IMG/VR virus record: IMGVR_UViG_3300031565_000157 | Coordinates: 1-37,276 of that record | Direction: 5' to 3' (one strand) | Length of the DNA: 37,276 nucleotides | From: a virus | Shown here: piece by piece, positions 15,887 to 37,276 of the stretch | Layout: each line of letters starts with the position of its first letter | Numbering within the stretch: the stretch's first letter is position 1 | Made by a program: the position numbers and the translations under genes | The notes under the pieces: generated by a model | The model's database searches: none | The model's input: only the letters and a program-made list of their open reading frames with translations | What the model was told of the DNA's origin: nothing

Positions 15887-16705
15887 ATGGCAGTTGCGAA
15901 AATAGGTTCATACGCTCCGGGTGATGAAAATTTAAACGATTTGATGACAAGCGCAAATTTGCAAGCGATCGGAAACGATAAAGTAACAGCTAACACATCA
16001 ACTGATGTTATGAATTCAGGTTCTGTTTTTGAATGCGGAGGTTCTTATTATCAGTTAACAAGCAATGTTTCAATATCAGGAAGTAAGACAAATCCGGTAC
16101 ATGTATATTTTAATCCTACAACGGAAGCGTTTTCTTATTCAACAACAGTTCCAACATATAATAATACATTGCAAGGTTATTACAGTTCAACTAATAAATG
16201 TTTACTTAGAGGTGACACAACAGGAGTGCATCAGCTTAAAAAACCTGAGACAATGACAATGACAACGGGAGCAGAAATAAACATGTCAACAGGTAGCGAA
16301 ATAAATCTTGCTACAGGTTCTGATATAAATATTGCAACAGGTGCTGATATAAATATAGCTACTGGTGGAGGTATCGAAGTTGCATCAGGTGGTGAAATAA
16401 ATATTGCATCAGGTGCTGAAATAAATATTGCATCAGGTGCTGATATAGTTGTTGACGGTGGAGAGATTTTAAATTCAGGCGCTATAACTACTGAATCCGG
16501 AGGATTTTTATCAGTTCTATCTGGTGGAAGTTTTACATGTGCTTCAGGTTCTTCAGCTTCTTTTAGTGGGACTTGTAAATTACCTTCAGGGACAAGCTCC
16601 CCTACACCAATAGGATCAGGAACTGCATATATTAACACATCCGATAATTATTTTTATTTCTATAATGGTTCGGCGTGGCGTAAAATAGCATCTTCGGCGG
16701 TTTAA
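15887..16705 (+). CDS. Tail fibre / spike with eight-residue beta repeats
   Basis: 272 aa. Residues 127-190 consist of eight near-perfect copies of the unit (T/S)G(A/S/G)(E/D)IN(I/L/M)A, followed by looser copies (GGEILNSG, ITTESGGFLSVLSGGS). Such eight-residue units suit a beta-solenoid or triple-stranded beta-helix shaft. The C-terminus (SDNYFYFYNGSAWRKI) is a typical tip of tail fibres and other virion spikes. It lies among distal tail genes and is a candidate receptor-binding or spike protein. Confidence 0.8.
   Translation: MAVAKIGSYAPGDENLNDLMTSANLQAIGNDKVTANTSTDVMNSGSVFECGGSYYQLTSNVSISGSKTNPVHVYFNPTTEAFSYSTTVPTYNNTLQGYYSSTNKCLLRGDTTGVHQLKKPETMTMTTGAEINMSTGSEINLATGSDINIATGADINIATGGGIEVASGGEINIASGAEINIASGADIVVDGGEILNSGAITTESGGFLSVLSGGSFTCASGSSASFSGTCKLPSGTSSPTPIGSGTAYINTSDNYFYFYNGSAWRKIASSAV
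16265..16456 (+). repeat. Eight tandem 24-bp in-frame repeats in the fibre gene
   Basis: Eight 24-base units encode TGAEINMS, TGSEINLA, TGSDINIA, TGADINIA, TGGGIEVA, SGGEINIA, SGAEINIA, SGADIVVD. Units six and seven are almost identical in DNA (shared core ATAAATATTGCATCAGGTGC). Such repeats can gain or lose units by slippage, so fibre length may differ between isolates. Confidence 0.92.
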
Positions 16706-19809: not shown

Positions 19810-20018
19810 TCATTCTCCTTTAATTTGTTTATATTCATATTTATTTTTTGCAAAACATAAATTGACGGCATTTTTTTACTGTAAAATATTCCAGAACCTC
19901 CAACTTTAGCTTTATCATAGCTTGATAATTTGTCAAGCTTTTTTAATGTATGCTCGAACAATTTTTTTTCAATTTCTTCAATTTCTTTTATTCTGTCTTC
20001 TATGTCTATTATATTCAT
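19806..20018 (-). CDS. Small helical protein of the recombination operon
   Basis: 70 aa from ATG 20018; other in-frame starts at 20024 and 20039 are too near or inside the AAAGGAG ribosome site. It is helical and charged (IEDRIKEIEEIEKKLFEHTLKKL) and ends with ...INMNINKLKENE. It overlaps the nuclease gene by 4 nt and the SSB-like gene by 4 nt, so all three are coupled. Function unknown. Confidence 0.7.
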   Translation of the reverse strand: MNIIDIEDRIKEIEEIEKKLFEHTLKKLDKLSSYDKAKVGGSGIFYSKKMPSIYVLQKINMNINKLKENE

Positions 20019-20728
20019 TTCCATATCTCCTTTACCCATTTATTATTTTTCAATTTCCTTTTCTTTTCATGATAATAAAAATCTAATAAACATAAAAATG
20101 CTTTTTCTTTTTTATCAATATGTTTTGTCATATCTTTAAATTCGTATTCACCTGTTTCTTTGTCAAGTCTTAAAATGGCAACATTAAGATTATTTCCTTC
20201 AGTCATTCTATAAGCTGCTAATTGTAAAGCATACTCAGGATAAATATCTTTTGACGTTTTCCAGTCAATTATATATTTAGTTCCGTTAATAATAGCTACA
20301 GCATCACAAGTTCCAGCAAAACCATATTGGAAATTTACAAGCGTTTTTTCTGTTTCAATAACTTCAACTTTATTTAAAATTATCCAATCTAAAAAAGCCG
20401 TACAACAGTTATAAACTTCTGGTACTATTGGGAACTCGTGTTCAATTTGATATTCAATTCCTTTTTTTATTAAAATTTCTATTTGTTTATGAACTTCAGT
20501 TCCTATTTCTTTAGACGTGTCATTTTTATACGCTGTAATAGCATCCTGACAAATATTATCAAATGAATGAGTATGATCTTCAAAATGTGTTTTATTATTT
20601 TTGATGTATTCAGCAGCTAATTTAGCGGACCAATACATTAAAGCACTTGACTTGTCAATAATTCCTACAATTTGCGACACGCTCGGCAAATCCATTATTT
20701 CACCGTTTACATTTATATCTTTATACAT
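20015..20728 (-). CDS. PD-(D/E)XK nuclease, RecB/Cas4-like
   Basis: 237 aa. Motifs in order: GTEVH (76-80), GFAGTCDAV with D142, IDWKTSK with D155 and K157, then YALQLAAYR with Q169 and Y173. This is the RecB-type PDDEXK core, with the QxxxY motif. Such nucleases resect double-strand ends to give single strands for an annealing protein; here the ERF-type protein is the gene just upstream. No iron-sulphur cysteine set of Cas4 type is evident, so a phage exonuclease is preferred. Confidence 0.88.
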   Translation of the reverse strand: MYKDINVNGEIMDLPSVSQIVGIIDKSSALMYWSAKLAAEYIKNNKTHFEDHTHSFDNICQDAITAYKNDTSKEIGTEVHKQIEILIKKGIEYQIEHEFPIVPEVYNCCTAFLDWIILNKVEVIETEKTLVNFQYGFAGTCDAVAIINGTKYIIDWKTSKDIYPEYALQLAAYRMTEGNNLNVAILRLDKETGEYEFKDMTKHIDKKEKAFLCLLDFYYHEKKRKLKNNKWVKEIWK

Positions 20729-20729
20729 T

Positions 20730-21263
20730 TTACAACTCCATTACTTTTTTAATTTCATCTTCAGTATAAAGATGTTTAATAGTCTCAAAGTGTTTTAAAC
20801 TTTCAGCTTTTTTTTCAGGATTATTTTTAATATAATCAATTATAACTGAAATAGGCTTTTTCTCTTGTTTTTTTATTTCTTCTTTTGGATTGTGATTTTT
20901 ATTAAGTTCATCTGTTTCAACTATTTCAAATGCAGTCTGATAAAGATATCGCCTTATATATGTTTCAACCGCTCCGAGATTTTGAACTGGATGACAGCCT
21001 TTTAAATTTGCGGTTGACATAGGACTTGAAAATGTAATAATATCAGCAGGCTTTTCAACATCAATAAATGATAAATTCGCTAATTCATCATAAAAAGATA
21101 CTACACATGAGAATTTTAATTCTTTAGCAAGAATATTTATTTCTGGTATTATATCAGATAATTCATAATAGCTATACCCTGAAAATAAATTCTTACCAGA
21201 CATTTTAATTTTTTTATCTTGAAACATCTTTCTTGCTTCATTTAGTTTTTCGTAAACATTCAT
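20730..21263 (-). CDS. ERF-family single-strand annealing protein
   Basis: 177 aa. FSGYSYYELSDIIPEINILA near residue 27, a beta region with SPMSTANLKGCHPVQNLGA, then VETYIRRYLYQTAFEIVETDE match the ERF superfamily (PF04404: the GxxxTYxRRYxL pattern). The last 45 residues are a separate basic helical tail. ERF proteins anneal complementary single strands in phage recombination. It is next to the RecB-like nuclease, as in red-type pairs. Confidence 0.88.
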   Translation of the reverse strand: MNVYEKLNEARKMFQDKKIKMSGKNLFSGYSYYELSDIIPEINILAKELKFSCVVSFYDELANLSFIDVEKPADIITFSSPMSTANLKGCHPVQNLGAVETYIRRYLYQTAFEIVETDELNKNHNPKEEIKKQEKKPISVIIDYIKNNPEKKAESLKHFETIKHLYTEDEIKKVMEL

Positions 21264-28936: not shown

Positions 28937-29268
28937 ACGATCAAGATATATTTGAAAATCGAATGAAAATCTATTCAAGAGATTATTTTGTCTGTCAATT
29001 TAAAGGCTGCACTGTTTGTGGTGCTGATAATTTACAACTTGCTCATAGAATTTCGAAAGGTCATTCTGGTGTAAACTGGGTAAAAAATTATATTTATAGA
29101 GAATACTGTATCAGTTATAAAGATTCAGAAATCAAGAGATTGTTTATAAACAACACAAAAAATATGATTACAAGCTGCGCAAAGCATAACGATTATTTTA
29201 ACTGCTTGAATAAACCTGAAGAAGCTAAAAAAATAATTGATGATATTATGCATGATATTTTAGGATAA
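28933..29268 (+). CDS. HNH-like nuclease
   Basis: 111 aa. CQFKGCTVCGADNLQLAHRISKG gives the zinc knuckle and catalytic AHR (usual DHI/AHI), and MITSCAKHNDYFN supplies the second knuckle and N/H. The centre between is expanded with a helix (YIYREYCISYKDSEIKR). It shares a 4-nt overlap with the PDDEXK gene, so the two nucleases are made together. Confidence 0.8.
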   Translation: MNDQDIFENRMKIYSRDYFVCQFKGCTVCGADNLQLAHRISKGHSGVNWVKNYIYREYCISYKDSEIKRLFINNTKNMITSCAKHNDYFNCLNKPEEAKKIIDDIMHDILG

Positions 29269-29280
29269 AGAGGTGATGAA

Positions 29281-29679
29281 ATGAGAAAAATTAAATTCAG
29301 AGCATGGTTTATAGATACATACTATTATAATCCAAAACTTGATTTTGCAAATTTAGCATGTGGCGATTACAGAATAAAATTAGTAAACATTAAATTTCCT
29401 GTTTCAATAATATCCTCTGATTATGATGATTTTTTACTTGAACAGTTTACAGGATTAAAAGACAAAAACGGAAAAGAAATTTATGAAGGTGATATCATAA
29501 AACTTAGTAAAGATGCAGATGATTTATATTATCACCCGTCTCAAAATGTAGTTGTAGAGTGGGATTATAACTATACAGGTTTTAAACCTTTTCAAAGTAC
29601 CCATTCAGATTATCGTGGAATAGATAATGAAAATTGTGAAATAATTGGTAATATAAACGAAAATAAAAACTTAATATAA
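29281..29679 (+). CDS. YopX family protein
   Basis: 132 aa. It begins MRKIKFRAWFIDTYYY and has LLEQFTGLKDKNGKEIYEGDIIKLS, the signature of YopX (PF09643): FRAW followed by QFTGLxDKNGKxIYEGDI, then a beta region with VVVEWDYNYTGF and EIIGNINENKNL. Function is unknown across the family; common in early phage regions. RBS AGAGGTG. Confidence 0.93.
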   Translation: MRKIKFRAWFIDTYYYNPKLDFANLACGDYRIKLVNIKFPVSIISSDYDDFLLEQFTGLKDKNGKEIYEGDIIKLSKDADDLYYHPSQNVVVEWDYNYTGFKPFQSTHSDYRGIDNENCEIIGNINENKNLI

Positions 29680-29712
29680 AAACAATTTTTTTTAAATTTT
29701 TACATTTTTTTC

Positions 29713-29741
29713 TTGACAAGATTTTAAAAATATTTTAGAAT
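29713..29741 (+). promoter_or_regulatory. Sigma-70 promoter after yopX
   Basis: TTGACA (29713-29718), 17 bases, TAGAAT (29736-29741). It opens a roughly 100-nt leader before the small gene at 29848. Confidence 0.82.
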
Positions 29742-29807
29742 ACATTAAAATCTAAATAAAAAGGATAAAATCGGATACAACAAAGACAAATCAAAATTTA
29801 ATTCAAT

Positions 29808-29829
29808 CTGGGTGCAGGTATGTACCCAG
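29808..29829 (+). other. Leader hairpin before the 29848 gene
   Basis: CTGGGT (29808-29813), ten-base loop, ACCCAG (29824-29829), with AAAGCCTGAGA just after. It has no T run and is in the 5' leader, so it may set mRNA stability or translation. Between 29742 and 29807 the leader is plain AT-rich sequence. Confidence 0.55.
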
Positions 29830-29847
29830 AAAGCCTGAGATAATAAT

Positions 29848-30021
29848 ATGTACGAATTTAAAATAGTAACAGATGATATTGAAGAAATTAAAAGACATGC
29901 AAAATGTAATGATGCTTTTCATGCTTTACATAAAATTGTCTGTGCTGATAATATAAAATATAGCGACATAATAAATATTTTGGAAAATGCAAACATTGAC
30001 TTAGAAGAATTATGGAGTTAA
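29848..30021 (+). CDS. 57-aa helical protein
   Basis: ATG 29848, MYEFKIVTDDIEEIKRHAKC..., ...IINILENANIDLEELWS. The N-terminal FKIVTDD strand and the following helices resemble small phage proteins of unknown role. Read from its own promoter. No strong Shine-Dalgarno (CTGAGATAATAAT). Confidence 0.65.
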   Translation: MYEFKIVTDDIEEIKRHAKCNDAFHALHKIVCADNIKYSDIINILENANIDLEELWS

Positions 30022-30062
30022 TATACTAAATTATTATAAATTTTTTAAAAATGGAGTATGCA

Positions 30063-30254
30063 ATGAATAAAAAATTTTCAGTAGGTTTTGCGTTTTATGA
30101 AATAATATTATATTTATGTTTTTCTTTTGTTACCCTGCATTTAGATTTTCGGCTATGGAGTGAACCAGCAAGACTTATTTACATATTCTTAAGTGTTTTT
30201 ATTTTGCCTTTATCTTTTTTAACTATAATACGATACTTAAATAGTGATATATAA
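30063..30254 (+). CDS. Small two-helix membrane protein
   Basis: 63 aa from ATG 30063 (GGAG five or six bases upstream; an ATG at 30051 lies before the site). Hydrophobic segments VGFAFYEIILYLCFSFVTL and LIYIFLSVFILPLSFLTII give two membrane helices. Holin-like in shape and between lysozyme and amidase genes, so it is one of three holin candidates (with 9380 and 35847). Confidence 0.68.
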   Translation: MNKKFSVGFAFYEIILYLCFSFVTLHLDFRLWSEPARLIYIFLSVFILPLSFLTIIRYLNSDI

Positions 30255-30258
30255 TAAT

Positions 30259-30420
30259 ATGCTAAATGATTATAAATGTCCTAAATGCGGAATAATAATT
30301 GAATATGATGATAAAACAGATCATATATGTAAAGACTGCAATTGTGTTATGATAAAAGTTTATAGTAGTTGTAATGTAATAATAAGCTGTAAAGGCACTT
30401 ATAAAGGAGATAGCAGATGA
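30259..30420 (+). CDS. 53-aa zinc-ribbon protein
   Basis: MLNDYKCPKCGIIIEYDDKT then HICKDCNCVMIKVYSSC: the CPxCG...CxxC ribbon of FmdB-type small proteins. Its stop overlaps the next ATG (ATGA at 30417). Confidence 0.72.
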   Translation: MLNDYKCPKCGIIIEYDDKTDHICKDCNCVMIKVYSSCNVIISCKGTYKGDSR

Positions 30421-30611
30421 CTATTAAATGTATGAATTGTAAAAAAAATATTAAAAAAACAAATTATATAAAATTTGAATCGGGTGGACTTTCTGAATGT
30501 GCTTATTTAGAAAGCATAGGGCGTGATTTTTATTTTTATTTTGATGAATTGGATGGATATTATTGCAATAAAAATTGTTTCTTGGAAAAATTGAAACTTA
30601 AAATAGGATAA
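30417..30611 (+). CDS. 64-aa zinc-finger protein
   Basis: MTIKCMNCKKNIKKTNY opens with CxxC, and GYYCNKNCFLEK supplies the second pair. The centre is a beta hairpin rich in tyrosine and phenylalanine. Resembles small treble-clef or TRASH-like fingers (C-x2-C...C-x3-C). Coupled to the previous zinc-ribbon gene. Confidence 0.7.
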   Translation: MTIKCMNCKKNIKKTNYIKFESGGLSECAYLESIGRDFYFYFDELDGYYCNKNCFLEKLKLKIG

Positions 30612-30617
30612 TAAAAA

Positions 30618-30812
30618 ATGAAAGAATCAGATAAAATATTATTAGATTTATTAGATCAGTATACCTGTAGTATGATTGATGATAATTTACCAAACAGAAC
30701 TCAATATAATGCTGAAGCTATAGCAGTAATGTATCTGGAAAATTTAGGACTTGTTAAGCGAATCGAAGGTAAATTTCCAGAAACGAAATTTATAACATTC
30801 AAGATTTTATAA
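30618..30812 (+). CDS. 64-aa winged-helix-like protein
   Basis: MKESDKILLDLLDQYTCSMI..., then AEAIAVMYLENLGLVKRIEGKFPETKFITFKIL: helix, helix, then strand pair, as in a winged helix. Could be a small regulator. No firm family. Confidence 0.6.
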   Translation: MKESDKILLDLLDQYTCSMIDDNLPNRTQYNAEAIAVMYLENLGLVKRIEGKFPETKFITFKIL

Positions 30813-30841
30813 AAATAAATAATTAAGGAGATTTTAAGTAT

Positions 30842-31417
30842 ATGAATTACATAGTAAACAGGGAATTAAGAAAATTCCACGAAGGATTTTCAAGAAATGA
30901 TTATGATATAGATACTTTAATTATACATTGTACTGCTGGGGGAAGCTCTGCAAATAGTTGTATAAAATGGATGTCGAACGGTGGATTATTGGCAGATGGC
31001 ACTAAAAGAGAAAAAGATTACAAAAAAGGTATTGCGCTATTTCATTATTTAATTGATTTGAATGGTGATATTTACGAAATTATAAACCCTCATAATTTTG
31101 TATATCATTCGAGCACTGGAATTTTTGATAAAACAACAATTGGAATTGAACTTGTAAACACAGATAGAAATAATAGTAAACCTGTCACTAAAGAACAATA
31201 TAAAGCACTCGCAGAATTATATTTATTTATAAACAATAATATAAATAAGATTGACAATATTTATGGTCATGGAGCTATTAAAATGATTAAAACTGGTAAA
31301 AATAAAGTATGCCCCGGACTCGGCTTTGATTGGTACAAATTTCTTTTAGAATTAACTAAAAGTAATATTAATGCTAAATTATTCAACAATGATAAGCACA
31401 TAGAAATAACAGTATGA
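30842..31417 (+). CDS. N-acetylmuramoyl-L-alanine amidase (Amidase_2, T7 lysozyme-like)
   Basis: 191 aa. Zinc ligands are H29 in LIIHCTAG, H143 in IYGHGAIK and C157 in KVCPGLGF, in the T7 lysozyme spacing; E103 in TIGIELVN lies in the conserved strand. The enzyme cuts the bond between sugar and stem peptide of the wall. No export signal is seen, so it depends on a holin. It follows AAGGAG and overlaps the next gene by 4 nt. Confidence 0.94.
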   Translation: MNYIVNRELRKFHEGFSRNDYDIDTLIIHCTAGGSSANSCIKWMSNGGLLADGTKREKDYKKGIALFHYLIDLNGDIYEIINPHNFVYHSSTGIFDKTTIGIELVNTDRNNSKPVTKEQYKALAELYLFINNNINKIDNIYGHGAIKMIKTGKNKVCPGLGFDWYKFLLELTKSNINAKLFNNDKHIEITV

Positions 31418-31620
31418 TTTGTAGTAAATGTAATAGAGAATTACCAGAAACAGAATTTCATAAATCCGGATACAAGCCTACACGAGCTAGAAGAACAGAT
31501 TGTAAAGAGTGCAGAAAAAAACAACGGCATGAATATTATTTAAAAAATTCGATTAAAGAGGCTGTTTATGCAAGAAAAAATTATAGAGAAAAAAAAGAAT
31601 TTATTGCAAATACCTTGTGA
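31414..31620 (+). CDS. Zinc-ribbon protein, endonuclease VII-like N-terminus
   Basis: 68 aa. MICSKCNRELPETEFHKSGY ... RTDCKECRKKQRHEYYLKN has the CxxC...CxxC plus basic helix common at the start of recombination endonuclease VII and of HNH regulators, but the catalytic part is absent. The last 53 nt overlap the next gene in another frame. Perhaps a DNA-binding remnant. Confidence 0.65.
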   Translation: MICSKCNRELPETEFHKSGYKPTRARRTDCKECRKKQRHEYYLKNSIKEAVYARKNYREKKEFIANTL

Positions 31621-31771
31621 AATTTGGCAAAGGGTAGTCGGATTTTATCGCCCATTAAGTGAAGCCAATAAAGGGAAACAATCAGAAATAAAAGATAGAA
31701 AATTATTTGATGTAAACATGAAAAACAAAGAATATGATAGATGGAATAAAAAAAAGCTTGACAAGTTTTAA
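31568..31771 (+). CDS. Stand-alone glycyl-radical domain resembling the NrdD C-terminus
   Basis: 67 aa, ATG 31568 with AAAGAGG five bases upstream. Residues 17-43 read CEIWQRVVGFYRP then LSEANKGKQSEIKDRK. The same pattern ends class III (anaerobic) ribonucleotide reductases: RVxGY with the radical glycine, followed by an N-x-GKQ-E-x-K-x-R run. The rest of NrdD is absent here. It may repair or activate a host NrdD, in the way GrcA/YfiD serves pyruvate formate-lyase, or be a remnant. The C-terminal codons (KKLDKF) contain the duplicated promoter at 31758. Confidence 0.72.
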   Translation: MQEKIIEKKKNLLQIPCEIWQRVVGFYRPLSEANKGKQSEIKDRKLFDVNMKNKEYDRWNKKKLDKF

Positions 31772-31785
31772 GGTTCGTATATATT
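31751..31785 (+). repeat. 35-bp repeat carrying a promoter, copy 1
   Basis: Identical to 33749-33783. In both places it codes the last residues (KLDKF, stop) of the gene before and contains TTGACA (31758-31763), 16 bases, TATATT (31780-31785). It is followed in both copies by a base change and then AGTT. Confidence 0.9.
31758..31785 (+). promoter_or_regulatory. Promoter in front of a cassette-like gene (copy 1)
   Basis: TTGACA, 16-base spacer, TATATT. It reads into the core-like GTTGTGT at 31788 and then the gene at 31812, the same arrangement as at 33756. Confidence 0.78.
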
Positions 31786-31787
31786 TA

Positions 31788-31794
31788 GTTGTGT
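31788..31794 (+). promoter_or_regulatory. Integron core-like site (copy 1)
   Basis: GTTGTGT, one base from the core GTTRRRY. Its position relative to the promoter is close to that of GTTAGAT at 33786 (overlapping AGTT). The inverse partner ACATAAC at 32025 pairs with it except for one wobble position. Confidence 0.5.
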
Positions 31795-31811
31795 GAAAGG
31801 CGGTTTAAAGT

Positions 31812-32012
31812 ATGAAAATTAGAAAAATTAAAACTAAAGAAAGGGCTAATGGTATGAAGTATTGCACCTTTTGCAAGCCTGCCAGAGTTGACGCTGTATA
31901 TAGAGATTTAAACATGAAGTTTGCGTGTGAAGAACATAAGCATTTATTAACAGAGGATAATGATGACGGATATATGTCAGATGGTGATTATCAATCATGG
32001 GGCAGGCTTTAG
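31812..32012 (+). CDS. Cysteine-containing protein in a cassette-like unit
   Basis: 66 aa, MKIRKIKTKERANGMKYCTFCKPARVD ... KFACEEHKHLL; CxxC and a later CxxH form a probable zinc site. It lies between core-like GTTGTGT (31788) and inverse core ACATAAC (32025), as a cassette gene does. GGCGG serves as ribosome site. The inverted repeat GGGCAG/CTGCCC (32000-32005, 32016-32021) spans its stop. Function unknown. Confidence 0.65.
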   Translation: MKIRKIKTKERANGMKYCTFCKPARVDAVYRDLNMKFACEEHKHLLTEDNDDGYMSDGDYQSWGRL

Positions 32013-32024
32013 GAACTGCCCATC

Positions 32025-32042
32025 ACATAACAAAGATTAGAT
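32025..32042 (+). other. Collapsed attC (stem region missing)
   Basis: ACATAAC followed by AAAG, then directly ATTAGATGAAATAGAGG. The first part equals the left end of the attC sites at 34252 and 34826 (TAACAAAGA), the second equals the start of cassettes 1, 2 and 4 (TTAGATGAAAT, AGAGGTT). The imperfect palindrome between them, some 60 nt in the complete sites, is absent. It looks like an attC reduced by deletion. Confidence 0.55.
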
Positions 32043-32058
32043 GAAATAGAGGTTTAAA

Positions 32059-32184
32059 ATGATAACTTGCACAGTATGTAATAGTAAAATAAGTGTATCA
32101 AATCCAGATCATAAATTCAATTTTAATTGCTGTATAGTTTCATATCTTGACAATTTGAGAAGAAAATTCAAGGCGGTAAAATGA
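32059..32184 (+). CDS. 41-aa zinc-ribbon protein
   Basis: MITCTVCNSKISVSNPDHKF then NCCIVSYLDNL; CxxC plus CC. Preceded by a cassette-type head (ATTAGATGAAATAGAGG at 32036) whose AGAGG is its ribosome site. The stop overlaps the next ATG. Function unknown. Confidence 0.65.
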   Translation: MITCTVCNSKISVSNPDHKFNFNCCIVSYLDNLRRKFKAVK

Positions 32185-32942
32185 AAAGACTTTTGATTAT
32201 AGCTGATACACATACCAATCACCAATTAGGATTAACTCCACCAGAATATCAAAATATATTTTACAAGGAAATTCAATCTATTGGATGGAATTTTTATTCT
32301 AAAACTGTTAAAGAACTTAATGCTGATGCTGTTTTATTTAATGGCGATATAATAGATCTTGCTAATTTCCATGATAAAACAGAATTTATAACAACTAATA
32401 CAGAACACGCTCGTCAAATGGCTATAGAAGTAATATATGAAATACCTAATATCAACAATATTGAAAAGATATTTATTCGTGGAACTGGTGTCCATACAAA
32501 ACAGAATGAAGAGCAAGAGGATTTAATTGCTGAAAATTTTGATTGTGTTGCTTATGACTCTAAAAAATTTAAAATTAACGGAACTATTATCCATGCTCGG
32601 CATACTTCGTCAAAAGGTGGAACTGCTTATGGTTCTGTAACACCTTTACAAAGATCTGCAGTGATTCAAATTTTAAATGATATATCAAAAAATCAGGTAA
32701 AAGCGGACTTGTATATACGCAGTCATTGCCACGATTTCAATATAGTGCAACGGTCATTATTTACAGCTATGACAACACCAGCCTTACAATTTGCTGGCTC
32801 AACTTATGGAAGGGGCTTGACTGGTTTCTATGATTTCGGGATCTCATGGATTGATTTTGATGATGAAGGAAATTTCAATATTTATCATAAAATATTAAAA
32901 ACATCAACAGGGCATAAAGAAGAAATTATGGAGATAAGATAA
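32181..32942 (+). CDS. Calcineurin-like metallophosphoesterase
   Basis: 253 aa. LLIIADTHTNH (D9, H11), VLFNGDIIDLANF (GD 55-56), FIRGTGVHTKQ in the place of GNHD/E, IIHARHTSS and YIRSHCHDF complete the two-metal site. The altered GTGVH keeps the histidine but lacks asparagine; members with such changes exist in phages. Possible substrates are nucleic acid ends or nucleotides. It shares ATGA overlaps with both neighbours. Confidence 0.88.
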   Translation: MKRLLIIADTHTNHQLGLTPPEYQNIFYKEIQSIGWNFYSKTVKELNADAVLFNGDIIDLANFHDKTEFITTNTEHARQMAIEVIYEIPNINNIEKIFIRGTGVHTKQNEEQEDLIAENFDCVAYDSKKFKINGTIIHARHTSSKGGTAYGSVTPLQRSAVIQILNDISKNQVKADLYIRSHCHDFNIVQRSLFTAMTTPALQFAGSTYGRGLTGFYDFGISWIDFDDEGNFNIYHKILKTSTGHKEEIMEIR

Positions 32943-33163
32943 TGCTTTCAGGAATAGAAACATATATTTTGTCTGATGAAATGTTAAAAAAAATAAATAG
33001 CTTGACAGATAGCGCAAAAAAGAATATAGTATTTACAAAAGAACAAGATTACATTATCAAAGAATATTATCATAAAAAAAGCAAACAAGAACTTTCTAAA
33101 CTTTTAGGAATCTGTGAAAACACATTAAGAAAAAGATTTAGAGAGCTTGAAACGGAGGTTTAA
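32942..33163 (+). CDS. Small helix-turn-helix protein
   Basis: 73 aa. FTKEQDYIIKEYYHKKSKQELSKLLGICENTLRKRFREL is a helix-turn-helix of the homeodomain/resolvase type: helix, turn LGICENT, recognition helix. It is a candidate regulator for early or late switch. It follows the phosphoesterase with a 1-nt overlap. Confidence 0.75.
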   Translation: MLSGIETYILSDEMLKKINSLTDSAKKNIVFTKEQDYIIKEYYHKKSKQELSKLLGICENTLRKRFRELETEV

Positions 33164-33164
33164 A

Positions 33165-33242
33165 ATGATTTTTTTAATATGTTTAATAGTATTCATTATT
33201 TTGGCGCTTGTTATGTATTTTTTAATGGCATACTTTGACTGA
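33165..33242 (+). CDS. 25-aa single-pass membrane peptide
   Basis: Consensus GGAGG lies six to nine bases before ATG 33165. MIFLICLIVFIILALVMYFLMAYFD is one membrane helix. Its stop overlaps the next ATG. Such peptides may act as holin partners or small inhibitors. Confidence 0.6.
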   Translation: MIFLICLIVFIILALVMYFLMAYFD

Positions 33243-33604
33243 TGTATTTATACAAAGAAATTAAATTGACACCGTTCCCGATTACACTACATACTTATAT
33301 CGGCAAAGATGTTAAAATTTTTGAAGACATACAAAAAGACTTTGATTATAATTTATTATCTGGTTTTAATATGGAAATAACAAAGGGTATATGTTCATAC
33401 GATACAGATCTTAACGGTAATTATATAATATGGGTAATGTGCAAAAAATATTTATTGCATGAAATTGTACATTGCGTTGATGCTTTAATGCAGAATATTG
33501 AAGTTGAAAGCATGGAGTTTCGAGCTTATTATGTTGACTATTTATTTAATTATTTGAAAAACGATAAAATATATAAAAAAAATCATTGTAAACAAGGAGT
33601 TTAA
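33242..33604 (+). CDS. HExxH zincin-like protein
   Basis: 120 aa. YLLHEIVHCVDALMQ holds HEIVH (73-77), the zinc-binding site of metallopeptidases, and VESMEFRAYYVDYL gives a glutamate after a short linker as a possible third ligand. The compact size is that of minimal gluzincin-like phage proteins. Substrate unknown; host regulator cleavage (ImmA-like) or wall peptide are options. Confidence 0.75.
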   Translation: MYLYKEIKLTPFPITLHTYIGKDVKIFEDIQKDFDYNLLSGFNMEITKGICSYDTDLNGNYIIWVMCKKYLLHEIVHCVDALMQNIEVESMEFRAYYVDYLFNYLKNDKIYKKNHCKQGV

Positions 33605-33616
33605 AGTGAAAAATAA

Positions 33617-33769
33617 ATGTTAAAAGAATCTGGAATGGATGAAGTTTATTGCATGTGGTATTGCTGCCCTAAATGCGGTTATGACATGATAATGATATCG
33701 TTTAAATACTGTCCTAATTGCGGTGTTAAATTAAATGTTAAAAAAAATAAAAAGCTTGACAAGTTTTAA
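33617..33769 (+). CDS. 50-aa zinc-ribbon protein
   Basis: MLKESGMDEVYCMWYCCPKC... with CPKCGYD and CPNCGVK, a classic zinc ribbon. It ends KNKKLDKF, whose codons form the repeated promoter. The ribosome site AGGAG (33594) is distant; a five-codon GTG ORF at 33606 lies between, so coupling is possible. Confidence 0.65.
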   Translation: MLKESGMDEVYCMWYCCPKCGYDMIMISFKYCPNCGVKLNVKKNKKLDKF

Positions 33770-33783
33770 GGTTCGTATATATT
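33749..33783 (+). repeat. 35-bp repeat carrying a promoter, copy 2 (TTGACA / TATATT)
   Basis: Identical to 31751-31785. The promoter is TTGACA (33756-33761), 16 bases, TATATT (33778-33783). It reads straight into the cassette array, so it plays the part of an integron Pc promoter although no integrase is present. Confidence 0.9.
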
Positions 33784-33785
33784 CA

Positions 33786-33792
33786 GTTAGAT
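33786..33792 (+). promoter_or_regulatory. attI-like core site at the head of the cassette array
   Basis: GTTAGAT fits the core GTTRRRY exactly and follows the -10 box by two bases. It marks the left end of cassette 1; its complement ATCTAAC is at the start of attC1 (33980). Confidence 0.72.
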
Positions 33793-33808
33793 GAAATGGA
33801 GGCTAGAC

Positions 33809-33985
33809 ATGGTAAAATACAAAAAAGGCGACAGGGTTATTGTAGATAATGACAGGGTTGGAACTATTGTAAAATGTGAACAAGTCTACACGGCGGTCGT
33901 AGAGTTCGACCATGAGTATATAAGTTCTTCGCTTCGCTGTGTTGATAAGATGGAGGTTGAGCAAAACCGCCTCCACTTCATCTAA
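33809..33985 (+). CDS. Cassette 1 protein, SH3-like small barrel
   Basis: 58 aa from ATG 33809 with GGAGG upstream; an earlier in-frame ATG at 33791 overlaps the core site. MVKYKKGDRVIVDNDRVGTIVKCEQ ... AVVEFDHEY reads as a KOW/SH3-like barrel of five strands. The stop TAA lies in the inverse core of attC1. Function unknown; small barrel proteins often bind nucleic acid. Confidence 0.75.
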   Translation: MVKYKKGDRVIVDNDRVGTIVKCEQVYTAVVEFDHEYISSSLRCVDKMEVEQNRLHFI

Positions 33986-34059
33986 CAGCAATTAAACGGT
34001 TTCGCTCCGCTACATGCGAATCCACTTCGTGGACTTCGTTTAATTGCGGAACATTAGAT
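33980..34059 (+). repeat. attC site 1
   Basis: Inverse core ATCTAAC (33980-33986) and core ATTAGAT (34053-34059) frame an arm AGCAATTAAACG that pairs with CGTTTAATTGC, and a tip TCCAC-TTC-GTGGA. Size 80 bp. The core has A instead of the usual G at its first base, which may lower recombination. Confidence 0.82.
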
Positions 34060-34085
34060 GAAATAAAAATTAAAGAGTATTTACA

Positions 34086-34241
34086 ATGAGGACAGAATCC
34101 GAAATAAAAAAAGAAATTGCTGCTATGAAAAGAGATTTAGAGTTTATGGAAAAAAAGCCAATTCATAGTGAAGAGGCACGAGAGAACGCTATGTTTTGTC
34201 AGCGTCAAGTCATTAAAGTATTAGAATGGTGTGTAGAATAA
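34086..34241 (+). CDS. Cassette 2 protein, 51 aa
   Basis: ATG 34086, AAAGAG upstream. MRTESEIKKEIAAMKRDLEF ... EEARENAMFCQRQVIKVLEW is a helical coiled-coil hairpin. No known domain. It ends 10 bp before attC2. Confidence 0.72.
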   Translation: MRTESEIKKEIAAMKRDLEFMEKKPIHSEEARENAMFCQRQVIKVLEWCVE

Positions 34242-34251
34242 TTTTTACTTC

Positions 34252-34334
34252 ATCTAACAAAGAATATCTGGTTCAGCCTGTGGCTTCACCCAAACCGTGA
34301 GTACACGGCTTCAGATATTCTTGGAACGTTGTCG
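34252..34334 (+). repeat. attC site 2
   Basis: Inverse core ATCTAAC (34252-34258); arm AAGAATATCTG pairs with CAGATATTCTT; tip CCGTG-AGTA-CACGG; core GTTGTCG (34328-34334). Size 83 bp. The core departs from GTTRRRY, but its last six bases belong to cassette 3, whose own inverse core is CGACAAC, the exact complement. Confidence 0.85.
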
Positions 34335-34360
34335 GAAATAAGTTTTTAAAGGAGATAAAA

Positions 34361-34633
34361 ATGACAGAAGAAAGATGTAAACAAATTATGGAGCAACTTG
34401 GACAGCCTCATAGTAGGTCTTTAATGCAAGTAATTTTCCAAGTTGCAAACGAGACAGAGCAGGAAGTGAGAAAAAAACTTACATCCGACAACAGCGATTA
34501 TGAGGTTCAGCTAAAGGCTTCACCCAAATTGCCGAGTTTAGAAGATGTTATTGACGAAGTTTCAGACCATGTGCATCGAGAAACAATTAAGGAAACATAC
34601 TATGCAATACAACGACTCGGCAACTTCGCATAG
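34361..34633 (+). CDS. Cassette 3 protein, C-terminal half coded by the attC hairpin
   Basis: 90 aa, ATG 34361 after AAAGGAG. MTEERCKQIMEQLGQPHSRS ... TEQEVRKKLTSD is helical; from about residue 42 the frame passes through inverse core CGACAAC (34486) and on through the arm and loop of attC3, reading ...LPSLEDVIDEVSDHVHRETI..., to stop in the right arm (34631). Both halves look protein-like. Either the attC loop expanded by taking in coding DNA or the gene gained a mobile C-terminus. Confidence 0.72.
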   Translation: MTEERCKQIMEQLGQPHSRSLMQVIFQVANETEQEVRKKLTSDNSDYEVQLKASPKLPSLEDVIDEVSDHVHRETIKETYYAIQRLGNFA

Positions 34634-34648
34634 TAGCAAACGTTAAAT
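34486..34648 (+). repeat. attC site 3, very long, with a coding loop
   Basis: Inverse core CGACAAC (34486-34492), left part GGTTCAGC and GGCTTCACCCAAA as in attC2, then TTGCCGAGT (34529-34537), a 77-nt loop, ACTCGGCAA (34615-34623, perfect complement), CTTCGC as in attC4, and core GTTAAAT (34642-34648). Size 163 bp against 80-83 for the others. The lower arm pairs imperfectly (GCGATTATG with CATAGTAGC). Confidence 0.7.
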
Positions 34649-34664
34649 GAAATAGAGGTTAGAC

Positions 34665-34841
34665 ATGGAACCAGAAGAAAAGTTAGGTTTAAACAAAGCG
34701 TTAGATATTCTAAATAAAATTCAAAGGTTTGATTTATGTTGGCAACAGATGGATGAAACAAAAGACGGGGAGTTTGTTAGATATAGCGACATAAAGAGGT
34801 CTATTATAGAACTCCTCCAAACTTCATCTAACAAAGAATAA
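34665..34841 (+). CDS. Cassette 4 protein, 58 aa
   Basis: ATG 34665 with AGAGG upstream in the same head sequence as cassette 1. MEPEEKLGLNKALDILNKIQ ... WQQMDETKDGEF ... SIIELLQTSSNKE is mainly helical. Its last codons (TCA TCT AAC AAA GAA TAA) lie in attC4. Function unknown. Confidence 0.72.
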   Translation: MEPEEKLGLNKALDILNKIQRFDLCWQQMDETKDGEFVRYSDIKRSIIELLQTSSNKE

Positions 34842-34905
34842 GCGTTTCGCCTTCGGCTCTCCCAAATTGCCGTTGGCAACTTCGCTTATTCTCGGAACGT
34901 TATAC
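34826..34905 (+). repeat. attC site 4
   Basis: Inverse core ATCTAAC (34826-34832); arm AGAATAAGCG pairs with CGCTTATTCT; tip TTGCC-GTT-GGCAA; core GTTATAC (34899-34905). Size 80 bp. It shares CCCAAATTGCCG and GGCAACTTCGC with attC3. Confidence 0.85.
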
Positions 34906-34924
34906 AAAAATGAGAGGTGAATGA

Positions 34925-35119
34925 ATGGAAAAAATAGACGTTAAATCTGTACAAATGAGTTTAGAAGAACACCTCTCAACTATGGTAGAAGGAATTGAAC
35001 CAGATTGGGGCTGTATTGGAGAGTTTGATGAAGAAAGTGGTTTTGAACCTGAGTGGGACGAAATAGAACATAATAGTTGGGAATGTCACTCTTGTAACAA
35101 TGGACCTTGTTATCAATAG
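34925..35119 (+). CDS. Cassette 5 protein, acidic, cysteine at the C-terminus
   Basis: 64 aa, ATG 34925, GAGAGGTG upstream. MEKIDVKSVQMSLEEHLSTM..., very acidic centre (FDEESGFEPEWDEIEHN) and an end CHSCNNGPCYQ. It is the last gene of the array; no complete attC follows. Confidence 0.7.
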   Translation: MEKIDVKSVQMSLEEHLSTMVEGIEPDWGCIGEFDEESGFEPEWDEIEHNSWECHSCNNGPCYQ

Positions 35120-35120
35120 T

Positions 35121-35145
35121 ACATTTGAAATTATACAATAAATGT
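35121..35145 (+). other. Right boundary of the cassette region (possible core remnant)
   Basis: ACATTT...AAATGT forms a weak hairpin with T-rich DNA after it. Inside lies ATTATACAATAAATG (35130), similar to the start of cassette 5 (GTTATACAAAAATG, 34899). It may be the decayed right-hand core of cassette 5, whose inverse core GTATAAC is absent. Confidence 0.35.
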
Positions 35146-35179
35146 CTTTAAATATTTTTAGAAAAACCATAAAAAAGAC

Positions 35180-35208
35180 TTGACAGAATTTTACAGAAAT
35201 GTTATGAT
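35180..35208 (+). promoter_or_regulatory. Promoter of the rightmost small-gene operon
   Basis: TTGACA (35180-35185), 17 bases, TATGAT (35203-35208). It lies right after the cassette region and reads into eight tightly packed small genes and then terminase. Confidence 0.85.
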
Positions 35209-35228
35209 TTGAACAATTGGAGCTATGA

Positions 35229-35543
35229 ATGTATATTTTAATGCTATATGACAATAACGGTTCAGAAAAAGAATTTAAAGAAATGTTTTATTATGATGAT
35301 ATTTCAGATATTTCTGACATGTTAAGTACGCTTGATTATTTAATAAATATATCTTTTATATATGAAAATGAAGTAGTAAACAGCGATATTCTTTTTTTAG
35401 AAAAAGTTGAAAACTTTCAATGTGATGAATATTACAAACAGCCTGCAGGAGTTATTTCAACACGTGACGTATATATGAGAATATACAAAACTGATTTTGT
35501 CAATGCAGATGATAAAGCCGTTTGTGAGAAGATAATAGAATGA
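35229..35543 (+). CDS. 104-aa protein, unknown
   Basis: ATG 35229 with GGAG nearby. MYILMLYDNNGSEKEFKEMF ... ISDISDMLSTLDYLINISFI is a mixed alpha/beta sequence, acidic. First gene of this operon; its end overlaps the next ATG (ATGA). No family recognised. Confidence 0.75.
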   Translation: MYILMLYDNNGSEKEFKEMFYYDDISDISDMLSTLDYLINISFIYENEVVNSDILFLEKVENFQCDEYYKQPAGVISTRDVYMRIYKTDFVNADDKAVCEKIIE

Positions 35544-36878: not shown

Positions 36879-37229
36879 ATGAATATTAGCGGTGTTATGC
36901 ATAATTTTACAGAAGAACAATTAAGAGAAGCTATAAAGAATACTGATTCAGTTATAAGCAATTTAGCTATAAATTTAGATTGTGACTGGCATACTGCACG
37001 CCGATATTTAGATAAATTTCCTGAAGTCAAGACGGAATTTGTCCGAGAATCCGAAAAAACAAGCGATAAAGCAAAAAGAAATATATCTAAAGCAATTGAT
37101 GAAGGTGATTTAAATCTTAGTAAATGGTATTTAGAAAAAAATATAAATACTAATAACGAATTTTCAGATAAGATACAGCTTGAACATTCAGGAGACATTA
37201 AAGTAAATATAAATATAAATGAAATATGA
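36879..37229 (+). CDS. terS: Terminase small subunit
   Basis: 116 aa. An N-terminal helix-turn-helix (EEQLREAIKNTDSVISNLAINLDCDWHTARRYLDKFPEV) recognises packaging sites; a helical middle (SDKAKRNISKAIDEGDLNLSKWYLEK) suits oligomer formation; the end IQLEHSGDIKVNININEI has the EHSGD motif seen at the C-terminus of many small terminases. It overlaps terL by ATGA. An in-frame ATG at 36897 is a possible alternative start. Confidence 0.9.
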   Translation: MNISGVMHNFTEEQLREAIKNTDSVISNLAINLDCDWHTARRYLDKFPEVKTEFVRESEKTSDKAKRNISKAIDEGDLNLSKWYLEKNINTNNEFSDKIQLEHSGDIKVNININEI

Positions 37230-37276
37230 AAGAAATCAATACTGATTTTGACATACCTACAAAATTCAAGCCTATT
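37151..37276. repeat. Terminal direct repeat, right copy
   Basis: Same 126 bases as 2-127. Joining the copies restores intact small and large terminase genes and a circle of about 37,149 bp. Confidence 0.95.
37226..37276 (+). CDS. terL: Terminase large subunit, first 17 codons (rest at 77-1276)
   Basis: The ATG and first codons of the packaging ATPase, cut by the window end and identical to the start of the gene at 77. Not a second gene. Confidence 0.93.
   Translation, partial: MKEINTDFDIPTKFKPI

Follow-up and report, generated by a model that had tools for sequence, protein, structure and literature searches.

How could a phage that encodes no integron integrase take up integron cassettes, small mobile genes that are as a rule shuffled by bacteria, and at which point of its genome would they enter? 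The question is raised by the IMG/VR virus record IMGVR_UViG_3300031565_000157, which we analysed over its whole length (37,276 bp, hereafter the window). A 35-bp repeat occurs twice in it, each copy containing a promoter-like sequence and standing before a GTT core, an arrangement that an earlier note on this DNA had likened to the Pc-attI cartridge of integrons. We put the probability at roughly 70% that the phage carries an integrase-less integron cassette cluster (CALIN) and that a phage-type promoter, present in two copies, has the core used for entry 3 nt behind it; this judgement is drawn from the sequence. Cassettes in phages were known before, their route of entry and expression was not, and here the entry point appears to be visible behind a phage-type promoter, twice. 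Positions 2-127 of the record recur at 37151-37276 as a 126-bp terminal repeat, so the record is probably a closed phage genome; it includes TerL, portal, head, tape-measure and DnaB genes and has an overall G+C content of 29.8%.

The 35-bp repeat and its cores

The exact 35-mer AAAAAGCTTGACAAGTTTTAAGGTTCGTATATATT lies, as the earlier note had stated, on the plus strand at 31751-31785 (copy 1) and 33749-33783 (copy 2), 1998 bp apart, and there is no third copy in the record. With the terminal repeat counted only once, no exact repeat in the record is longer (the maxima in 50 dinucleotide shuffles were 14-18 bp). By consensus scoring, both copies agree at 11 of 12 positions with a sigma-70-type promoter of the form TTGACA-16-TATATT, with TTGACA at 31758 and 33756 and TATATT ending at 31785 and 33783. 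Past the repeat, the copies differ by a single T/C exchange, share AGTT and then diverge. TAGTT (31786-31790, plus strand) and CAGTT (33784-33788, plus strand) would thus form entry sites 1 and 2, with crossover cores at G31788|TT and G33786|TT. The two junctions thus share one position with respect to the repeat, a G|TT 3 nt behind the promoter, and the AGTT and core-like GTT reported earlier behind each copy are indeed there, after the one differing base.

Each copy also encodes the residues KLDKF followed by a stop, which form the C-terminal ends of two unrelated small open reading frames (ORFs) at 31568-31771 and 33617-33769; this bears out another of the earlier observations. In all six frames of the record, KLDKF-stop occurs at these two places only. 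That note had also named what would count against it, namely that the repeat is common elsewhere as a coding motif; neither the 35-mer nor a 20-base inner piece of it has an exact match in IMG/VR. The first of the two ORFs (67 aa) matches only the last 30 positions of the anaerobic ribonucleotide reductase NrdD (PF13597, E 2.4e-6) and is a stand-alone C-terminal NrdD piece.

Four tandem integron-like cassettes behind copy 2

Cassettes of integrons begin, right behind the G|TT crossover, with bases that can pair with an R'' box near the end of the same cassette. Behind copy 2, the sequence continues as CAG|TTAGATGAAATGGAGG into four short tandem units on the plus strand (33787-34899) that follow this rule one by one. 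Units a (33787-34053) and b (34054-34328) start with TTAGATGA, unit c (34329-34642) with TTGTCGGA and unit d (34643-34899) with TTAAATGA; their R'' boxes, ending at 33986, 34258, 34492 and 34832, match these starts at 8, 8, 8 and 7 of 8 positions. The unusual start of c is paired with an equally unusual box, CCGACAAC, that is found in no other unit. When all 543 GTT in the window were scanned, an AAC box lying 150-300 nt downstream gave a match of 7/8 for 14 of them, comprising four named units (31789, 33787, 34329 and 34643) and ten others that are taken as chance. A complete 8/8 match was reached by two GTT only, both of them cassettes. Unit b has ATT as its left core, and hence lies outside this count.

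The attC sites of a (33979-34060), b (34251-34335) and d (34825-34906) have nearly perfect stems, and their bottom strands fold with z scores of -6.56, -4.43 and -3.80, with none of 200 shuffles as stable. Units b and d contain ORFs at 34086-34241 and 34665-34841. In c, the attC (34485-34649) is long or broken, and the ORF (34361-34633) extends through it. Within 34473-34652, attC c retains GGTTCAGCNNNNGGCTTCACCCAAA of attC b, while its far half lies ~ 100 nt away; this is either an attC turned coding or an enlarged attC. A CALIN is recognised by two or more close attC sites with R''/R' boxes and a hairpin, and by the lack of an integron integrase nearby; here, a, b and d fold, the boxes match cassette by cassette, and no such integrase is encoded. 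The G+C content of the units (34-43% vs 29.8% for the phage) adds weak evidence, because 12% of the phage windows also reach 36%. The protein of cassette a had no match in phages or plasmids, the cassette DNA had none in plasmids, and a scan of 10 proteins of the array and the block upstream of it for defence functions gave no convincing match (best E 0.0022).

To the right of the array, 34900-35119 (plus strand, 36% G+C) holds an ORF at 34925-35119 and is either native flank or a last cassette without attC. No R'' box matching the start of this stretch was found. If the two flanks of the array are joined, the promoter stands before TTATACAAAAATGAGAGGTGAATGAATGG and this ORF, and copy 2 would then have been the natural promoter of ORF 34925-35119, unless the stretch is such a cassette.

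Copy 1 and the block between the cores

Behind copy 1, TAG|TTGTGTGAAAGG leads into an ORF (31812-32012), then CACATAAC, AAAGA and, directly, TTAGATGAAATAGAGG at 32037. The stretch 31789-32036 (plus strand, 36% G+C) is probably a cassette, c0, with an R'' box at 32024-32031 that matches its start at 7/8 and is followed by AAAGA and the next core. The box reads AACAAAGA, which is also the start of attC b and d. We read c0 as a probable cassette in which a deletion has removed the attC between the L'' box and the next core; cassettes truncated in this way, with R'' as the sole remnant, are described (PMC12901181).

Alternatively, copy 1 could be a duplicated promoter and nothing else, arising by illegitimate or ERF-type recombination, with c0 an ordinary phage gene and copy 2 the sole cassette site. 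We consider this unlikely, and it is still the strongest of the competing explanations. The c0 attC is cut down to R'' (plus core) and the remnant does not fold, ten further GTT in the window have a match as good as its 7/8, an ERF protein is encoded by the phage, and homologues of the c0 gene, which within the searched collection is known only from phages, occur in 31 of 50,697 phage records, two of which, inspected by eye, have no attC beside the gene. These findings speak for such an origin of copy 1, and the c0 gene may be a phage gene that became a cassette or merely resembles one. Against a promoter-only origin stand the box AACAAAGA shared with attC b and d, the TTAGATGAAATAGAGG directly behind it, which by eye shares 15 of 16 bases with the beginning of cassette a, and the fact that the repeat stops exactly at the core.

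From core to core (31789-33786, plus strand), the block measures 1998 bp, runs from G|TT to G|TT and has the same 38-bp arm, with one difference, at both ends. This is the layout of a delta-attI-type cassette, in which attC is replaced by a copy of the entry site with G|TT on both sides. Apart from c0, the block consists of phage-like genes (32037-33748, plus strand) with 26-31% G+C that begin with the cassette-like start TTAGATGAAATAGAGG and show no R'' box. They encode a 41-aa protein, a metallophosphoesterase-like protein, a short helix-turn-helix-like protein (weak match), a protein with an HEIVH motif and small zinc-ribbon or zinc-finger-like proteins. Of the two functions named earlier, the metallophosphoesterase has a weak match (PF00149, E 0.0026, below the Pfam cut-off), and the zincin comes down to the HEIVH motif read in ORF 33242-33604, which has no Pfam match.

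Recombination at the two cores is predicted to remove the 1998 bp and join arm 1 to cassette a. The deletion of about 2 kb foreseen in the earlier note is a fair prediction: the block has a G|TT core at either end, the left arms are near-identical, and the phage encodes a single-strand-annealing protein of ERF type (20730-21263), through which it could itself use the 35-bp homology. On the minus strand at 20015-21263, the ERF recombinase adjoins an ORF with a weak match to Cas4-like nucleases, and the two are likely a phage recombination pair.

Under the CALIN reading, a host or a co-resident element would supply the integron integrase in trans, and this enzyme would treat the promoter-linked core like an attI, recombining it with attC hairpins that come in. 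The cassette genes would become the first in transcripts from the phage promoter, which would take the role of Pc. In formal terms, the 1998-bp block would be a single large cassette with a copy of the entry site at its end, where an attC would normally stand. Either the integrase or annealing between the homologous 35-bp arms could cause its loss or circularisation. As for the second copy, it may have come with the insertion of such a block, or by mosaic recombination between related phages at a shared promoter. The sequence right of the copy 1 core differs from that right of the copy-2 array, so either the core of copy 1 has also undergone recombination, or the copying ended exactly at this core. 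A bolder proposal, which we regard as speculative, is that the two promoter-linked sites are maintained by the phage for a host integrase to load with host cassettes, and that the duplication turns a block of the phage's own genes into a cassette that can be excised and re-inserted. Provided that the sites are functional, phages could pick up integron cassettes without an integrase of their own and could pass their own genes to integrons.

Integrase, known systems and relatives

So, are the two sites attI sites? No integron integrase or other tyrosine recombinase was found in the 37,276-bp record, with no matches to TIGR02249 or PF00589; the same searches matched in 14 of 14 control genomes, with TIGR02249 above its cut-off in none. 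An attI adjoins an intI gene, and the lack of any integrase in the record counts against attI identity and means that the integrase would have to act in trans. The R box consensus GTTRRRY is fitted by copy 2 (GTTAGAT) and partly by copy 1 (GTTGTGT), the bases after GTT belonging to the cassettes. The likeness to a Pc-attI cartridge is well supported at copy 2 by R'' boxes and attC folds and probable at copy 1 from the 7/8 match, whereas membership of the attI class is not supported, there being no intI and no recognisable L box.

Several further observations weigh against the CALIN reading. No L box is recognisable left of the core, where by eye nothing resembles the CCCTAAA of attI1. Promoter-like matches are frequent in this AT-rich phage (68 vs 41.7 expected from the shuffle mean), and other 11/12 sites lie at 29713, 33002 and 35180 within 29000-35500. 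Because consensus matches are common in such DNA, we only infer that both repeat copies are active promoters. The top strands of attC a, b and d fold about as well as the bottom strands (z -6.97, -3.93 and -3.77), so that the strand asymmetry of real attC sites, which are marked by extrahelical bases and a preference for the bottom strand, is not seen, and the 180 nt folded for attC c do no better than chance (z -0.07). A crude scan for the attC layout gave three sites on the plus strand (two real and one chance; attC b is missed by its rule) and none on the minus strand; 40 shuffles averaged 0.9 sites and reached at most 3, and the scan decides little because the window is poorly separated from the shuffles. 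IMG/VR, protein and TerL searches revealed no relative with an empty or refilled site, and the reading is based on one genome.

Among known systems, phage CALINs are the closest: Qi et al. (2023, PMC9892861) reported 17 in a set of 10,705 phage genomes, and 5 of 6 phage attC sites tested there were active with IntI1. They share with this array tandem attC cassettes in the same orientation, small genes of unknown function and no integrase. Here, however, the entry core and promoter arm are visible, twice, and the available text of that report describes no duplicated promoter-core site. As in the Pc-attI arrangement of attI1 (PMC12901181), the promoter closely precedes a GTT core, and the cassettes start behind this core; unlike it, the site lies among phage genes, lacks a neighbouring intI and shows neither direct repeats nor a recognisable L box. 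Cassettes of delta-attI type are published for class 1 and 2 integrons, and the attI1-ORF-attI1 form is excised by IntI1 at 100% (PMC12901181). The block resembles these in being flanked by the entry site at either end, with G|TT as both its limits, and differs in its 1998 bp of mainly phage-like genes and in its 38-bp arm with one difference, which is not proven attI. A literature search that took in few subscription papers and left preprints aside found no report, within the text available, of a phage with a duplicated promoter-core entry site. Phage CALINs were already known, and the duplicated promoter-core with its intervening block looks like a new form of them.

The attG sites mentioned in PMC12901181, at which cassettes insert outside integrons, suggest a different history. 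An ordinary phage promoter with no function as a site may have had a chance GTT behind it that was hit by a host integrase, with selection for expression, and promoter and core may later have been copied by mosaic recombination. Insertion at a GTT outside an integron is common to both, the site here has neither a recognisable L box nor an integrase gene next to it, and other CTTGACA promoters of similar type exist in the phage. Unlike attG sites, the same arm is present at two sites here, with cassette-type junctions at the same base behind both, and the right flanks of the copy 1 core and the copy-2 array differ, so a single event followed by copying is insufficient unless the copy stopped exactly at the core. 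We rate this course of events as improbable, somewhat behind a promoter-only copy 1. A chimeric repeat or array order, conceivable in a metagenomic virus record, is very improbable given that the copies differ one base after the repeat, that the repeat is shorter than usual read lengths and that the terminal repeat is that expected of a closed assembly.

Searches with single proteins gave seven stretches for the metallophosphoesterase, none confirmed, and none for TerL; a TerL alignment kept 80 loci with 40-49% identity, from at least 586 confirmed relatives. TerL is nearest to Manatee Spring and Nitratiruptor phages, and at 42-45% identity, which is too low, no host is named. Treponema, which is AT-rich and in which integrons are known (PMC3607928), was considered as a host on these grounds.

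Three attC patterns had no match in IMG/VR. The attC frame CATCTAACA(50-80)GGAACGTTAGATGAA had one match in the species-genome collection, on contig NZ_JAULSA010000036.1 of Saccharibacillus sp. CPCC 101409, which carries a tandem array with several attC-like hairpins between genes. We also scanned 95 sequences, including the window, this contig and the 80 TerL loci, for GGAAC[AG]TT with a matching upstream R'' or CTAAC, a rule that misses attC b and d (their R' belongs to the next unit). It matched the window and its pieces, the Saccharibacillus contig and one further sequence (L026), where R'' is unmatched and which is taken as chance. The Saccharibacillus match, a comparison of motifs, supports the attC reading without making Saccharibacillus the host. 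In a pattern search of 398 genomes of its phylum, 28 had a match; the Saccharibacillus hairpin type is found in a few of them, and most of the other matches look like chance. An alignment with MAFFT paired the phage and Saccharibacillus attC sites out of register, and an attC covariance model was dropped. The Saccharibacillus genome also encodes an IntI-like recombinase of 395 aa, whose match to TIGR02249 is split in two and stays below the cut-off. It lies on another contig (L102, 138-1322, minus strand) and reads toward a GTTATATG core; array and recombinase together are an integron in a Gram-positive lineage.

Elsewhere in the phage, searches for tRNAs and for Rfam families gave no match. 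A YopX-family protein is encoded at 29281-29679 (PF09643, E 7.8e-18), in a region where stretches of 53-72 bp share 79-85% DNA identity with phages of Campylobacter, Lactobacillus and Vibrio. Near the tail genes, a structural gene contains an imperfect repeat of seven 24-nt steps of the TATTGCATCAGGTGCTGATATAAA type (16263-16471).

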